Below are positions 53,022 through 58,773 of a stretch of DNA of 64,000 nt, one piece after another. How positions within the stretch are numbered: position 1 is the stretch's first letter; each line of letters begins with the position of its first letter. This DNA is from Puia dinghuensis (GTDB lineage: Bacteria; Bacteroidota; Bacteroidia; Chitinophagales; Chitinophagaceae). The notes below the pieces were generated by a model. That model had not been told where the DNA came from. It made no database searches and saw only the letters and a program-made list of their open reading frames with translations. A program made the translations under genes and the position numbers. The stretch lies in assembly GCA_026225275.1 (NCBI GenBank), contig JAMFSL010000074.1, forward strand, positions 1 through 64,000. Reading direction: 5' to 3'.

Positions 53022-54149
53022 TTATTGTGCCGGCAGTTCATTGACTGCAGGTATCGCTTTTCCATAATCGGCATAGCTCCATTTGGCCAGGATCGTCCCG
53101 CCTTTGAGGAGATACAACGTGGGGTTGGCCCTGGCGGCAGTCTTAATGGCCGTCGCATCGCATTTCAGGATCGTCACGTCGGCGGCTATTCCCTGTTGCT
53201 GAACGAGTGCGACGAGGTTGTCGTAATCGCCGGTGATAAAGATGACTGGAATATGTTTGGCCTTAGCCATCGTCAGGATCACGCTGAATTTTTGGTCGGC
53301 GGGGTGCGCAGCATCCACTTCTTTTATGAATTCGAACAGCTTGTAGCCTTTCGCGGCCAGCAGGTCTTGTGTAGTATCCAGCCCCTCCCCTGTGGTCAGG
53401 ACAAAATCCTTGATCGCCGGCACAGCGTTGCCCTCACGCACTACCTTATCATAGCGGCTGACGAAATGATAGGTGCTATCAAAATCTTTTGGGAAATGAG
53501 CGGCATCGAATTCGAGCTTCTTTCCGTTCCTGTCGTACACCATCGTAATGACCGTGCTGTCAGGGAGGGCACCTGGTGGGATCTTCATTTTTTCGGGGAT
53601 GTTGTTCCCGACTTTATACGGCAGGCAATCCACAACGGGCAGATGAACCAGCACATGCCATTGAATGGCGAAGGAGGCCAGGGTGGCCAGGATCAGCACT
53701 CCGATGCTACCGGGAGACGGCAGGGCGGGTTGGATCTCGTACCGGACCAGGAAAAGAAAAAATACCAGCACCAGCAGTACCAGGTCCTTCGTAAAGGATA
53801 CGCCGGCGGTGATCGGGATACAGTCGCCGAAGCAGCCGCATTCCCGCACCTTACCCGACAGGTAGGCATATGCGGTGAGGAAGGTAAAGAAGATCATCAG
53901 CAGCAGGATCAGCCAGCTGAATAATTTCATCCGCCAGCCCAGAAGGATCGCCACTCCGGCTACGATCTCAAAGACAATCATGAGGAGAGAAAATGCCAGG
54001 GTGAAATGGTCCAGCCAGTGAAAATTCCAGACCTCGAAAAACTCCTGCATCTTATAGCTGAGGCCCAGGGGGTCGTCGGCTTTGATGAGGCCGGAGAAGA
54101 TGAAGAGGATGCCAACCAGTGCACGGATAATAGAGATGAGCAGCTTCAT
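53022..54149 (-). CDS. DoxX-like/BT_3928 family membrane protein
   Basis: A 375-residue protein. The N-terminal 150 residues form about four membrane helices of the DoxX/MauE type (ALVGILFIFSGLIKADDPLG, KVRECGCFGDC with three cysteines). A soluble C-terminal domain of about 200 residues follows, with a thioredoxin-like pattern (KFSVILTMAKAKHIPVIFITGD, PTLYLLKGGTILAKWS). This is the BT_3928 arrangement known in Bacteroidota, normally beside DUF1599 and tpiA. Here DUF1599 is 2 kb away, and only a fossil of its 5' end lies just upstream. Confidence 0.85.
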   Translation of the reverse strand: MKLLISIIRALVGILFIFSGLIKADDPLGLSYKMQEFFEVWNFHWLDHFTLAFSLLMIVFEIVAGVAILLGWRMKLFSWLILLLMIFFTFLTAYAYLSGKVRECGCFGDCIPITAGVSFTKDLVLLVLVFFLFLVRYEIQPALPSPGSIGVLILATLASFAIQWHVLVHLPVVDCLPYKVGNNIPEKMKIPPGALPDSTVITMVYDRNGKKLEFDAAHFPKDFDSTYHFVSRYDKVVREGNAVPAIKDFVLTTGEGLDTTQDLLAAKGYKLFEFIKEVDAAHPADQKFSVILTMAKAKHIPVIFITGDYDNLVALVQQQGIAADVTILKCDATAIKTAARANPTLYLLKGGTILAKWSYADYGKAIPAVNELPAQ

Positions 54150-54170
54150 GAACGAAATTAATTTATGATG

Positions 54171-54204
54171 GCCGATTCGTACTTTTGTGATCCATCGCGT
54201 AAAA
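54171..54204. repeat. 34-bp repeat: fossil DUF1599 start and likely folP promoter
   Basis: This stretch matches 56661-56694 in 33 of 34 positions. In the second copy it is the first codons of the DUF1599 gene on the minus strand, with upstream bases. Here the minus strand reads ATG, nine further codons and a stop (MDHKSTNRPS), a truncated copy. On the plus strand both copies contain TACTTTTG (54180-54187 here), a TAnnTTTG -7 box 37 bp before the folP start. Confidence 0.7.
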
Positions 54205-54224
54205 GTAAAGATAATTGAAGTTAT

Positions 54225-55061
54225 ATGTCAACTTTGAATGCAAAAGGCAGGTTATTGGCTATCCGCCGGCCGGTTGTCATGGGGATCATTAACAGGGCTA
54301 ACGATAGCTTTTATAGTGGATCCAGATTTCCGGATAATGATGGGCTGCTGCAACAGGCGGAAAGAATGATCGCGGATGGCGCTGACTGGCTGGACATCGG
54401 CGGCCAGAGTACTCGGCCGGGTGCGGCGGTGATCGGTGAGGAAGAGGAATTAACCCGGGTCATTGGTGCCATTGATCTGCTGCACAGGCGATGGCCGGAT
54501 GTACCGCTATCTGTGGACACGTGGTATGCGCGGGTGGCTGCGGAGGCAGTGGGGGCAGGAGCTTTTATCGTCAATGATATCAGCGGAGGCCAGCTCGATC
54601 CGGCCATGTTAGAGACCGTTGGGCGGTTGGGCGTGCCCTATATCTGTATGCACATGAAGGGGACACCTCAAACGATGAATAAGCAAGCGGTGTATGACGA
54701 CGTCGTCAGGGATGTCCTGGACTTCTTTATCCGGCGGATCGAAGATTGCCGGCGGGCGGGGATCCATGATGTTATCCTTGACCCCGGTTTCGGCTTTTCG
54801 AAAACACCGGTACATAATTTTCAGCTGTTGCGACGGCTGGATGTTTTCAGGATATGCGACAAGCCGATCCTGCTGGGCGTGTCGCGCAAGTCGACGATCT
54901 ACAAAACGCTAGGGGTAACTTCGGAAGAGGCGTTGAATGGGACTACCGTGCTGCATACGCTGGGATTGCTGCATGGGGCGGATATCCTTCGGGTACATGA
55001 TCCCAAAGAGGCAAGGGAAGCGATAAAGTTGATGGAGGCTTATCAGCAGGCTGCCTCCTAA
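54225..55061 (+). CDS. folP: Dihydropteroate synthase
   Basis: Condenses para-aminobenzoate with a pterin diphosphate in folate synthesis; target of sulfonamides. 278 residues. Signatures: VVMGIINRANDSFYSGS (usual MGIxNxTPDSF form, here NRANDSF), GADWLDIGGQSTRPGA, FIVNDISGG, ICMHMKGTPQTM, VILDPGFGFSKTPVHN and LLGVSRKS. The unusual Ala where Thr-Pro normally follows the Asn is a variation worth noting. It has its own -7 box in the 34-bp repeat and a terminator downstream. Confidence 0.95.
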   Translation: MSTLNAKGRLLAIRRPVVMGIINRANDSFYSGSRFPDNDGLLQQAERMIADGADWLDIGGQSTRPGAAVIGEEEELTRVIGAIDLLHRRWPDVPLSVDTWYARVAAEAVGAGAFIVNDISGGQLDPAMLETVGRLGVPYICMHMKGTPQTMNKQAVYDDVVRDVLDFFIRRIEDCRRAGIHDVILDPGFGFSKTPVHNFQLLRRLDVFRICDKPILLGVSRKSTIYKTLGVTSEEALNGTTVLHTLGLLHGADILRVHDPKEAREAIKLMEAYQQAAS

Positions 55062-55064
55062 TAA

Positions 55065-55094
55065 GAAAAGCGCCGACTAACGTGGGCGCTTTTC
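55065..55094. terminator. Bidirectional terminator between folP and FKBP copy A
   Basis: Ten-base stem GAAAAGCGCC (55065-55074) / GGCGCTTTTC (55085-55094), placed after folP and before the 3' end of the FKBP gene on the opposite strand. A homologous terminator follows FKBP copy B. Confidence 0.75.
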
Positions 55095-55116
55095 CAATAT
55101 GATCGAATTAAATCAA

Positions 55117-56103
55117 TTAATGCTGAGGCTGGGGCTGCTGGGGCATCGGTTGACCGGGCCGGCCGGGCATTCCGGGGCGCATCGGCATCCGTTGCATAGG
55201 ATTACCGCCCATTCCCATGGGAGGCTGTGCCGGTGTCGGCGGCGCATCCCTTACCGTATCGACAACGATATCGAAAATCAGGTTTTCAAACTGTTGGCCA
55301 CCGGGTCCTTTCTGGTCGTTGTAGGCCAGGAATGCCGGGATATACAGCGTACCCTTGCCGCCCTGGTGGAAATTACGCAGCGCGTCGTCCCATCCGGGGA
55401 TGATCTGGTGAGCGCCGACGACGAATTTGAAGGGCGTATTACCGGGTCCCGTCATGTTGGACTGGAAGACCTTTCCGCTCGGAAACAGCTTACCCGTGTA
55501 TCGGACAGAAACCTGCTTACCCGAGTCTACCTTGGGGCCATTGCCCGGGTCTTCCACTACATAATAAGCACCCTGTGCGCTCTTCTGGGCTTGGATATTA
55601 TTTTTGGCGAGGTAGGCCTCGACATTCTTCACTTCTTTATCCTTTTCCTTCTCCAGCTCGCTCGCCCTGTCAGCCATCAGCAGATCCTGGGAGGCAAAAA
55701 CGTCCGTTATTTTGAATGTGATGGTGATCTTGTCTTTCTTCTTCAGGAAAGGAGGCAGCTGACCACCACCCTTGCGTTGGATCGAATCGGCCAGCAATAC
55801 CACCACTGCGCGGTCCCCTTTGCGGAGCATCAGGAAGATCTCGTTGGGATTATAGATCGGTCCGACGCTGTCGGCACGATTGTAGAAAGGGAATCCGTCG
55901 TAAGTATTGGAAAGAACGGAGTCCCGCACTTTTACTATGATCTCCCCTTTGATGAACTCTCCTTTTTTGATAGTCGGTCCTTTCCCATCGGAATAGATCT
56001 TATACAGCAGGCCGCTTTTGGTCTTTTTGAAATCCGTGTTAGTGCAGGAAATGGCCGCCAGCAGGACCATACTAACCCATAGATACGAGGAGATGCTTTT
56101 CAT
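55117..56103 (-). CDS. FKBP-type peptidyl-prolyl isomerase lipoprotein, copy A
   Basis: A 328-residue lipoprotein: the signal ends in LLAAISC with Cys at about residue 20. Residues 25-130 form a degenerate FKBP-like domain. A charged linker (ELEKEKDKEVKNVEAY) follows, and residues about 170-290 are a canonical FKBP domain (YVVEDPGNGPKVDSG, VSVRYTGKLFPSGKVFQSN, VVGAHQIIPGWDDALRN, GGKGTLYIPAFLAYND). The tail is rich in Pro, Met and Gln. It probably assists folding of envelope proteins. It is a paralogue of the gene at 56753-57754; the canonical domain is nearly identical, the N-terminal domain less so. Confidence 0.92.
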   Translation of the reverse strand: MKSISSYLWVSMVLLAAISCTNTDFKKTKSGLLYKIYSDGKGPTIKKGEFIKGEIIVKVRDSVLSNTYDGFPFYNRADSVGPIYNPNEIFLMLRKGDRAVVVLLADSIQRKGGGQLPPFLKKKDKITITFKITDVFASQDLLMADRASELEKEKDKEVKNVEAYLAKNNIQAQKSAQGAYYVVEDPGNGPKVDSGKQVSVRYTGKLFPSGKVFQSNMTGPGNTPFKFVVGAHQIIPGWDDALRNFHQGGKGTLYIPAFLAYNDQKGPGGQQFENLIFDIVVDTVRDAPPTPAQPPMGMGGNPMQRMPMRPGMPGRPGQPMPQQPQPQH

Positions 56104-56127
56104 TGTTATTATAATTATTGTAATTGT

Positions 56128-56685
56128 TTATAAGGTATGCTTGCCTTCGCCGATGAGGATCAGGGCAAAAAGAGAATAATTGATAATATCGATGTAATTC
56201 GATCCGATGCCTTCGCTGATCAGGGTAGCGCCGTCGTGAGCCACCATCTGCCTGATGCGGAGGATCTTCATGAGTATGAGGTCTACAAAACTTTCCTGGC
56301 TCATTTCCCGCCATGCCTCGCCATAATCGTGGTTCTTGTCCACCATCGTCGCGCGGGCGATGGCCATGTTTTCATCATATAGTGGTCCGGCTTTCCCGGC
56401 GGCCAGTTCTTCCGGCACATCGGCGCCAAGCGATAGCTGGATCAGGCCGATGATCCCGTAGTTGACCATGGCTTTGAATTCTCCGGCCTTGTCCTCCTTC
56501 ACTTTTGCGCCGTTCGTCTCCTGCAGGGTTCGGATACGCCAGGCTTTGATATATAACTGATCGGCGATAGAGATCGTACGCAGAACACGCCAGGAAGTAC
56601 CATAGTCGTTTGTTTTCAGGATAAAGATATGTCTGCAGGCCGCGGCTGCCTCGTCATATTGCCGATTCGTACTTTTGTCATCCAT
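56128..56685 (-). CDS. DUF1599 nucleotide-modification-associated protein
   Basis: A 185-residue protein with two tandem repeats of the DUF1599 module (KTNDYGTSWRVLR near residue 25 and KNHDYGEAWREMS near residue 115). Each is followed by an acidic-helix pattern, suggesting an all-alpha nucleotide-binding or hydrolase-like fold. The family is annotated as nucleotide-modification associated, without a proven reaction. In relatives it sits between folP and the BT_3928 gene. Here it lies between the two FKBP copies, explained by a duplication followed by loss. Its 5' end is partly repeated at 54171. Confidence 0.85.
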   Translation of the reverse strand: MDDKSTNRQYDEAAAACRHIFILKTNDYGTSWRVLRTISIADQLYIKAWRIRTLQETNGAKVKEDKAGEFKAMVNYGIIGLIQLSLGADVPEELAAGKAGPLYDENMAIARATMVDKNHDYGEAWREMSQESFVDLILMKILRIRQMVAHDGATLISEGIGSNYIDIINYSLFALILIGEGKHTL

Positions 56686-56700
56686 CGCGTAAAAATATAA

Positions 56701-56730
56701 AAAAAGCGCCGACTCAGGTCAGCGCTTTTT
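56701..56730. terminator. Bidirectional terminator between DUF1599 and FKBP copy B
   Basis: AAAAAGCGC (56701-56709) pairs with GCGCTTTTT (56722-56730); an inner GAC/GTC extends it. Homologous to the hairpin at 55065. Confidence 0.75.
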
Positions 56731-56752
56731 CAATATGATCGAATTAAATCAA

Positions 56753-57754
56753 TTAATGCTGGGGCTGGGGCTGCTGGGGCATCGGTTGACCACCGGGCCT
56801 CATCATCGGTTGACCGGGGCGCATCGGCATACGTTGCATAGGATTACCTCCCATGCCGCCCATGCCCATAGGAGGCTGTGCCGGTGTCGGCGGTGCATCC
56901 CTTACCGTGTCGACAACGATGTCGAAGATCAGGTCTTCGAATTGTTTGCCACCGGGGCCTTTCTGGTCATTATAGGCCAGGTAGGCAGGGATATACAGGG
57001 TACCCTTTCCACCCTGATGGAAATTACGCAACGCGTCGTCCCATCCGGGGATGATCTGATGTGCCCCTACAACGAATTTGAATGGCGAATTACCGGGTCC
57101 TTCCATGTTGGATTGGAAGACTTTTCCGCTCGGGAATAATTTACCGGTATAGCGGACAGACACCTGTTTGCCGGAGTCAACCTTGGGACCATTGCCCGGG
57201 GTTTCCACGACATAATAAGCGCCCAGTGCGCTCTTCTGCGCCTGGATGTTATTTTTGGCCAGGTAGGCTTCGACATCCTTCACTTCTTTGTCCTTTTCCT
57301 TCTCCAGCTCCGAGGCCCTGTCAGCCATCAACTGGTCCTGAGAGGCAAAGATGTCGGTTATCTTGAAAGTCACGATGATCTTATCCTTCTTCTTCATAAA
57401 ATCCGGCATATGACCGCCAGATTTGCGCTGGATCGTATCGGCCAGCAATACCACCACTGCGCTGTCCCCTTTGCGGAGCATTCCAAAAATTTCAGTAGGG
57501 CTATATGATGGAGTGGCGCTGTCGACGCGGACATAGAAAGGAATCGAGCCGTAGGAAGAGAACAGGACCGAGTCCCTTAATTTCTCGCTGACCTGACCTT
57601 TCAGGAATTCTCCTTTTTTTGCAGTCGGACCTTTCCCGTCGGAATAGATTTTGTAAAGCAATCCGCTCTTGGTTTTTTTGAAATCCGAGTTAGTGCAGGA
57701 AACGGCTCCCAACAGGACCAGGCTAACCCATAAATACGACGAGATGGTTTTCAT
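56753..57754 (-). CDS. FKBP-type peptidyl-prolyl isomerase lipoprotein, copy B
   Basis: A 333-residue paralogue of copy A with the same layout: lipobox signal ending in GAVSC, degenerate N-terminal FKBP-like domain, charged linker, canonical FKBP domain (GKLFPSGKVFQSN, IIPGWDDALRNFHQGG, YIPAYLAYND) and a Met/Pro/Gln tail with an extra GMGGMGG. By eye, residues 150-300 differ from copy A at only a handful of sites, whereas residues 55-110 differ at many. The 3' flanking sequence with its terminator is also duplicated. It starts 11 bp after the nrnA stop. Confidence 0.92.
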   Translation of the reverse strand: MKTISSYLWVSLVLLGAVSCTNSDFKKTKSGLLYKIYSDGKGPTAKKGEFLKGQVSEKLRDSVLFSSYGSIPFYVRVDSATPSYSPTEIFGMLRKGDSAVVVLLADTIQRKSGGHMPDFMKKKDKIIVTFKITDIFASQDQLMADRASELEKEKDKEVKDVEAYLAKNNIQAQKSALGAYYVVETPGNGPKVDSGKQVSVRYTGKLFPSGKVFQSNMEGPGNSPFKFVVGAHQIIPGWDDALRNFHQGGKGTLYIPAYLAYNDQKGPGGKQFEDLIFDIVVDTVRDAPPTPAQPPMGMGGMGGNPMQRMPMRPGQPMMRPGGQPMPQQPQPQH

Positions 57755-57765
57755 TCTTATTATAG

Positions 57766-58773
57766 TTATTGTAATTGTGAAGAATTATCTTTTAATGCCT
57801 GAAGGAATTTTTGGACGGTCACTTCAAGAGTATCGCTGCTTCTTCCGCCGGCCGCATTGACGTGGCCGCCGCCCTCGAAATACTTCCGGGCGAAGACATT
57901 GACATCGAAATTGCCCTTGCTCCGGAAAGAGCATTTGACTTCTTCATCCCGGTCGATGATCAGAGCTGCCATTTTAATCCCCTGGATCGACAAGGGAAAG
58001 TTGACCAGTCCTTCCGTATCGCCTGTTTTGATCTCATAGCGTACCAGGTCTTTCCAGGGAATAGCGATGAGCGCGGCATTGTGCTCGTAAAAGATCTCCA
58101 TCCGGTTCTGGAGCACAAAGCCTGTAAAGCGCAGGCGGTTTTCCAGGAAATTATCGAACAGGTCATCATGGATCTGCGTATGGTTCAGGCCCGTATCCTT
58201 TAGCGCCGCCACCATCCGGTGTACTGCGGCCGACGCCCCCGGAAAACGGAAAGATCCCGTATCCGTCATCACTCCGGCGTACAGACAGGCGGCGATATCG
58301 ATATCGATCAGTCCTGCGTGTCCCGACCCGACGATAAAATCGTAGACCATTTCGCTGGTAGAGCTCTTCGCCGTATCGCTGACGCCATAATCAAAATAGT
58401 CTACTTCCGGCTGCTGGTGATGGTCGATCAGTATTTTTGTCGCCGAGACCTTCCGTAGGCGGTTGGCCATATGCCGGGTCCGGGCCAGTGTATTGAAATC
58501 AAGGCAGAACACCCATTGCGCCTGGTCCAGTACGGCCATCGCCTTGTCCGTGCTGTATTCATAATCAATGACCCCACCGCACCCGGGCATCCACTTCAGC
58601 CATTCCGCCCAGTTCGTCGGCGAGATGACCACAGGCTCATGTCCCAGTTGGCTGAGAAAATGAAACAGGCCCAGCGACGAGCCCATGGCGTCGGCGTCAG
58701 GCTTCTGGTGCATGATAATCACCACTTTTCGCGGCGCATCCAATAAGGGGTATATGGCTTCTATAGGCTTCAT
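57766..58773 (-). CDS. nrnA: Bifunctional oligoribonuclease/PAP phosphatase NrnA
   Basis: DHH/DHHA1 phosphoesterase of 335 residues that degrades nano-RNA and 3'-phosphoadenosine 5'-phosphate. The metal-binding motifs are IIMHQKPDADAMGSS (near residue 20), the Asp in FCLDFNTL, and DHH in ILIDHHQQP (near residue 137). The DHHA1 domain ends with KYFEGGGHVNAAGG. The last codons (QLQ stop) are also found upstream of FKBP copy A, as expected if this 3' end was included in a duplication. Confidence 0.93.
   Translation of the reverse strand: MKPIEAIYPLLDAPRKVVIIMHQKPDADAMGSSLGLFHFLSQLGHEPVVISPTNWAEWLKWMPGCGGVIDYEYSTDKAMAVLDQAQWVFCLDFNTLARTRHMANRLRKVSATKILIDHHQQPEVDYFDYGVSDTAKSSTSEMVYDFIVGSGHAGLIDIDIAACLYAGVMTDTGSFRFPGASAAVHRMVAALKDTGLNHTQIHDDLFDNFLENRLRFTGFVLQNRMEIFYEHNAALIAIPWKDLVRYEIKTGDTEGLVNFPLSIQGIKMAALIIDRDEEVKCSFRSKGNFDVNVFARKYFEGGGHVNAAGGRSSDTLEVTVQKFLQALKDNSSQLQ

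Follow-up and report, generated by a model that had tools for sequence, protein, structure and literature searches.

How gene order changes in bacteria is debated, and duplication followed by reciprocal loss is an attractive route. Tandem duplication with random loss is the common model for animal mitochondrial genomes; as outlined for example in PMC5745709, the two copies made by a tandem duplication each go on to lose different genes, which gives a new order and at times leaves non-coding remnants. For bacteria, the SNAP model (Brandis and Hughes 2020, PMC7055797) holds that a segment is duplicated, that asymmetric loss locks the duplication and that a new linear order results. Its authors mention duplicate genes, as well as pseudogenes that have an active copy, among the traces that might be left, state that direct empirical evidence for SNAP was lacking so far (2020), and add that the process, once complete, shows nothing peculiar to SNAP. 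Brandis 2021 (PMC8046335) proposes segmental duplication and asymmetric loss for relocations of operon clusters and describes a retained duplicate section in Psychromonas ingrahamii. Among the titles and opening lines of abstracts that topic searches of the open-licence literature listed, we recognised no bacterial case with remnants at its joints.

Here we describe a locus of Puia dinghuensis (contig JAMFSL010000074.1) in which, very probably, one tandem duplication and two deletions, that is, reciprocal loss, moved a DUF1599 gene to a new place. The outline resembles that of the duplication-random loss model; unlike the mitochondrial cases, it concerns a bacterial chromosome, and an FKBP gene is kept in both copies. 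It likewise resembles SNAP in the duplicated segment, the asymmetric loss that would lock the duplication and the new order. However, the duplications that SNAP describes lie between direct repeats, span tens to hundreds of genes and are kept by selection, whereas the present unit is small and shows no long repeat at its joints. For the relocations in PMC8046335, the precise mechanism could not be determined, whereas in the present locus the joints are marked by remnants. Events of this kind are already known, and the value of the locus lies in being a completed, readable and well-preserved case. It looks completed yet is still marked, and so offers a search target: a short fossil of a gene end next to the gene's old neighbour, while the intact gene lies a few kilobases off. 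Because the locus shows which marks to search for, it becomes feasible to count such events systematically across conserved clusters.

The window, meaning the whole stretch of DNA that was analysed, is 64,000 nucleotides long, and the locus occupies 53-58.8 kb of it, in the order DoxX (minus strand), folP (plus), FKBP-A, DUF1599, FKBP-B and nrnA (all minus). We take the DHH/DHHA1 gene at 57766..58773 to be nrnA. The features are as follows.

53022..54149, minus strand: DoxX/MauE-domain gene (Pfam MauE and DoxX), ancestral neighbour of DUF1599
54163..54195, minus strand: left-copy DUF1599 remnant, a 10-codon open reading frame (MDHKSTNRPS and stop) with the start kept and a plausibly native stop
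54171..54204, no strand assigned: 34-bp fossil of the DUF1599 5' end, by sequence match to the intact gene
54200..54214, minus strand: promoter-like motif TTATCTTTACTTTTA upstream of the DUF1599 remnant, putative in function
54225..55061, plus strand: folP (Pfam Pterin_bind), left-copy survivor, sole match in the genome
55064..55095, minus strand: terminator-like hairpin of FKBP-A (fold z -5.25)
55117..56103, minus strand: FKBP copy A, left unit (Pfam FKBP_C)
56104..56127, minus strand: fossil made of the nrnA tail (56115-56127, ending in QLQ and stop) and the FKBP leader; duplication joint at about 56125-56128
56128..56685, minus strand: DUF1599 gene (Pfam), right-copy survivor, sole match in the genome
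56696..56713, plus strand: candidate short vestige of the 3' end of folP, which runs into the terminator; joint of the folP deletion near 56694-56696
56696..56735, minus strand: terminator-like hairpin of FKBP-B (fold z -6.55), about 10 nt ahead of the DUF1599 start codon
56753..57754, minus strand: FKBP copy B, right unit (Pfam FKBP_C), in its original place adjoining nrnA
57766..58773, minus strand: nrnA-type DHH/DHHA1 gene (Pfam), right border of the duplicated unit

The genome as a whole holds one folP, one DUF1599 and two close FKBPs.

To compare gene order, ten window proteins were searched by tblastn against the loci of relatives and the resulting orders were tallied. The close set consists of the 29 best-scoring loci, our own excluded, of 50 other genomes with a DUF1599 match (28 from the same genus and 1 from the same family); the wider set consists of the best 80 loci among the matches listed, and some genomes are common to both. 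DUF1599 sits between DoxX and folP in 29/29 close loci, and FKBP follows folP in 26 of them, the other three being short loci in which no FKBP was detected. Among the best 80 wider loci, folP adjoins DUF1599 in 76 and DoxX lies on its other side in 73, while FKBP comes after folP in 64 and nrnA after FKBP in 62; the misses include loci cut by a contig end, genes that escaped detection and real differences. The order DoxX-DUF1599-folP-FKBP-nrnA, which a sequence-only reading of the window had predicted to be ancestral, matches that of the relatives examined, and the placing of DUF1599 between folP and DoxX, part of what it had named as support, is found throughout the close set. The window's own order was seen in 0/109 loci (29 close and the best 80 wider), nor was an undeleted two-unit duplication present among them. 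Relatives with the window's order but no fossils, which the sequence-only reading had named as refuting, were not seen among them either.

The history that we propose starts from an ancestor with DoxX and DUF1599 on the minus strand, folP on the plus strand, and FKBP and nrnA on the minus strand. A tandem duplication would have followed, with one border at the end of DUF1599 and the other in the last codons of nrnA; since the two DUF1599 starts lie 2490 bases apart, the unit would have measured about 2.5 kb. In the left copy, a deletion would then have removed most of DUF1599, keeping its start region and plausibly also its last codon and stop. In the right copy, which would once have carried a second folP, a deletion would have removed that gene, so that the DUF1599 leader came to abut the folP end and the FKBP terminator. 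Both FKBPs would have been retained, and DUF1599 would have become fixed in its new place ahead of FKBP-A. The losses are complementary: the left unit has folP without a DUF1599 gene and the right unit the reverse, with a clear remnant of the lost DUF1599 and a modest one of the lost folP. With folP in one copy only and DUF1599 in the other only, the duplication could no longer collapse without loss. This scheme of duplication to the nrnA tail and loss of the left DUF1599 and right folP is in essence that of the sequence-only reading, and it is supported by the order in relatives, by the collinearity of a sister species and by the remnants at the joints.

The two same-strand FKBP paralogues with homologous 3' terminators reported earlier were recovered as two FKBP_C genes on the minus strand, each with a strong hairpin at its 3' end. 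The proteins are 86% identical, about 18% of bases differ between the coding sequences, and long stretches match between the two units, 3' ends included. Given that dN/dS between them is about 0.11-0.12, both are probably functional. In the sister species (G030, 87% complete) there is a single FKBP match, which is 88% identical to FKBP-B; FKBP-A, FKBP-B and this protein form one clade with support of 100/100. The pair is specific to the lineage of the window and G030; separately grouping FKBP paralogues older than the lineage, the other result named as refuting, were not seen.

The branching within this clade bears on the best-surviving alternative, namely that the second unit came from the sister lineage by recombination and then underwent the same losses. 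The best trees join A and B (99/85 in a 42-row protein tree, 85/76 in 15-row DNA and protein trees); B and G030 as sisters are not the best tree but are not rejected (AU p 0.21 for DNA and 0.24 for protein). Without an outgroup, sites at which two of the three agree number 70 for A and B, 60 for A and G030, and 90 for B and G030. With four outgroups, DNA site patterns for A+B versus B+G030 number 26/22, 21/26, 20/24 and 21/23, a slight tilt to B+G030 in three of the four. As to divergence, dS is 0.76-0.82 for A-B, 0.65-0.72 for B-G030 and 0.67-0.80 for nrnA between the two species, so that dS of A-B is not below that of nrnA and is as large as between the species. Such values and patterns lend recombination some room; against it stand the best trees and the tandem placement, which is the ordinary product of duplication, and we consider it improbable. 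Under tandem duplication within the lineage, the duplication is estimated from these divergences to date near the split from G030, just before or just after it.

The sister species also locates two of the three joints directly. Its contig C81 starts inside folP and continues with FKBP and nrnA; its alignment covers 54879-56127 in the left unit and begins at 56696 in the right unit, so that the homology ends on the proposed duplication and folP-deletion joints. A second contig ends inside DoxX, and DUF1599 was not found in this 87% complete assembly. Because its assembly is interrupted within folP and again within DoxX, a second unit in G030 is possible in principle.

At the duplication joint, the bases upstream of FKBP-A had been said to resemble the nrnA 3' end, and the resemblance proves exact over 13 bases. 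The 13-mer TTATTGTAATTGT (the reverse of ACAATTACAATAA) has just two occurrences within the window, one at 56115-56127 and the other in the nrnA 3' end, 57766-57778, with 0 matches in 100 shuffles. Upstream of FKBP-A, ACAATTACAATAA is the nrnA end and adjoins the DUF1599 stop. In relatives, the 13-mer is found once per locus in 21/32 loci (18/29 distinct), upstream of FKBP. A joint query of 111 bases (56090-56200) found a match in 18 of 33 genomes: matches to the FKBP/nrnA junctions of relatives extend no further than query base 38, except for one of 26 bases that reaches 41, and DUF1599 ends match from query base 36 or later. In G022 and G004, the query splits into two separate places, overlapping by 3 query bases. 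The overlap at the joint is 0-3 bp, and the joints show no long repeat. Because the overlap is so short, the duplication would probably have been illegitimate, although an original repeat could have been lost since.

At the folP-deletion joint, TATAAAAAAAGCGCCGAC (56696-56713) matches the end of folP in G030 at 17/18 positions. It may be read as a modest trace of the lost right-copy folP, modest because most of TATAAAAAAAGCGCCGAC is terminator common to both units, and it is an addition to the earlier account.

Beside DoxX, the remnant of DUF1599 is plainer. Positions 54171-54204 match 56661-56694, the 5' end of the intact gene, at 33/34; the 34-bp segment has only these two places in the window at <=3 mismatches and 0 in 100 dinucleotide shuffles, which upholds the match reported earlier. 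The 10-codon open reading frame, which ends 13 nt upstream of the DoxX start, was likewise borne out, but its reading as a simple truncation may give way to an internal deletion. The remnant's TCATAA end and 13-nt spacer resemble, by eye, the DUF1599 end of one relative (L010; G012 C60:2467-3009), and an in-frame internal deletion that kept the native stop is therefore plausible; assuming that the lost and the kept copy were equal in length, such a deletion would have taken out 175 codons in frame. DUF1599 ends in HTS or HTA with a gap of 11-13 nt to DoxX in 5/29 relatives (L007, L008, L011, L013 and L030), and in the remaining relatives the ends vary, with gaps from 10 to 514 nt. In L010, TCATAA and the 13-nt gap were read by eye, the automated reading having been misled by an in-frame TAG; this TAG lies near the start of the frame and may be a sequencing error, a sign of another start codon, or decay.

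These remnants weigh on a second alternative, in which FKBP alone was duplicated in tandem and DUF1599 moved separately between the two FKBPs. An FKBP-only tandem pair does exist in the genus (in G012), but such a history needs one further insertion, placed precisely where the nrnA tail meets the FKBP terminator, and by itself leaves the DUF1599 start beside DoxX and the folP-end trace unexplained. Moreover, Pfam found no transposase among the eight window proteins scanned, and we regard a separate move as very unlikely. The weakest alternative, that two strains or repeats were wrongly joined in an assembly of 365 contigs, is scarcely credible, the FKBP coding sequences being too different for repeat confusion, folP and DUF1599 each being present once in the genome, and the remnants themselves being short and partly drifted.

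Within the history of duplication and reciprocal loss, it is plausible, judging from motifs, that the DUF1599 start survived beside DoxX as part of the old operon's promoter and leader. On the DUF1599 strand between folP and DUF1599, TAnnTTTG or TATCTTT occurs in 24/29 relatives (shuffles: mean 1.6, maximum 6) and TATCTTT alone in 9/29 versus 0.4 in shuffles, the null being 500 single-base shuffles and the pattern having been picked after the sequences were viewed. TTATCTTTACTTTTA is kept in the left copy; the right copy is without it but carries, in a comparable position, TATATTTT, which departs from TAnnTTTG by one base. A separate candidate, TACTTTTG inside the DUF1599 start as a conserved folP promoter, was dropped, as it is not kept there in 15 relatives inspected. 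A combined account would be that of a completed bacterial duplication and reciprocal loss with remnants at all three joints, in which an in-frame deletion cut the left DUF1599 down to a leader of 10 codons for the reason that the DoxX operon still uses its start region as promoter and leader, in a cluster duplicated repeatedly in the family; we put this forward tentatively, at somewhat less than even chances.

Other relatives show duplications of their own. In G012 (L168:3957-5947), a pair of adjacent FKBPs lies between folP and nrnA; the two are sisters at 100/100, which is an independent FKBP tandem duplication within the same genus. L067 has the order DoxX-DUF1599-FKBP-folP-FKBP-nrnA; a quick tree joins its FKBPs as sisters (SH-aLRT 99), though a sparser tree puts one with L088 (96/60). 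It is possibly a second case, in which folP-FKBP would have been duplicated and the left folP lost. In L088, an FKBP lies between DUF1599 and folP, and nrnA was not detected in the locus. No nrnA-tail fossils were evident by eye in G012 L168, L067 or L088, and we therefore do not claim these as the same event. The NDK-nrnA-FKBP block of L048 (Deminuibacter soli) appears inverted relative to folP, and L107, titled a Streptomyces griseus MAG, has an FKBP that groups with Chitinophagaceae and is probably mislabelled.

The FKBP-A branch is longer than that of FKBP-B (0.14-0.16 vs 0.05-0.06 for protein, 0.13 vs 0.095 for DNA). Faster evolution of FKBP-A was not significant in Tajima relative-rate tests with four outgroups (p 0.07-0.34 for protein, 0.27-0.86 for DNA). 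In the pairs of the window, G012 and L067, the longer branch falls on the copy away from nrnA, three pairs being too few for a pattern.
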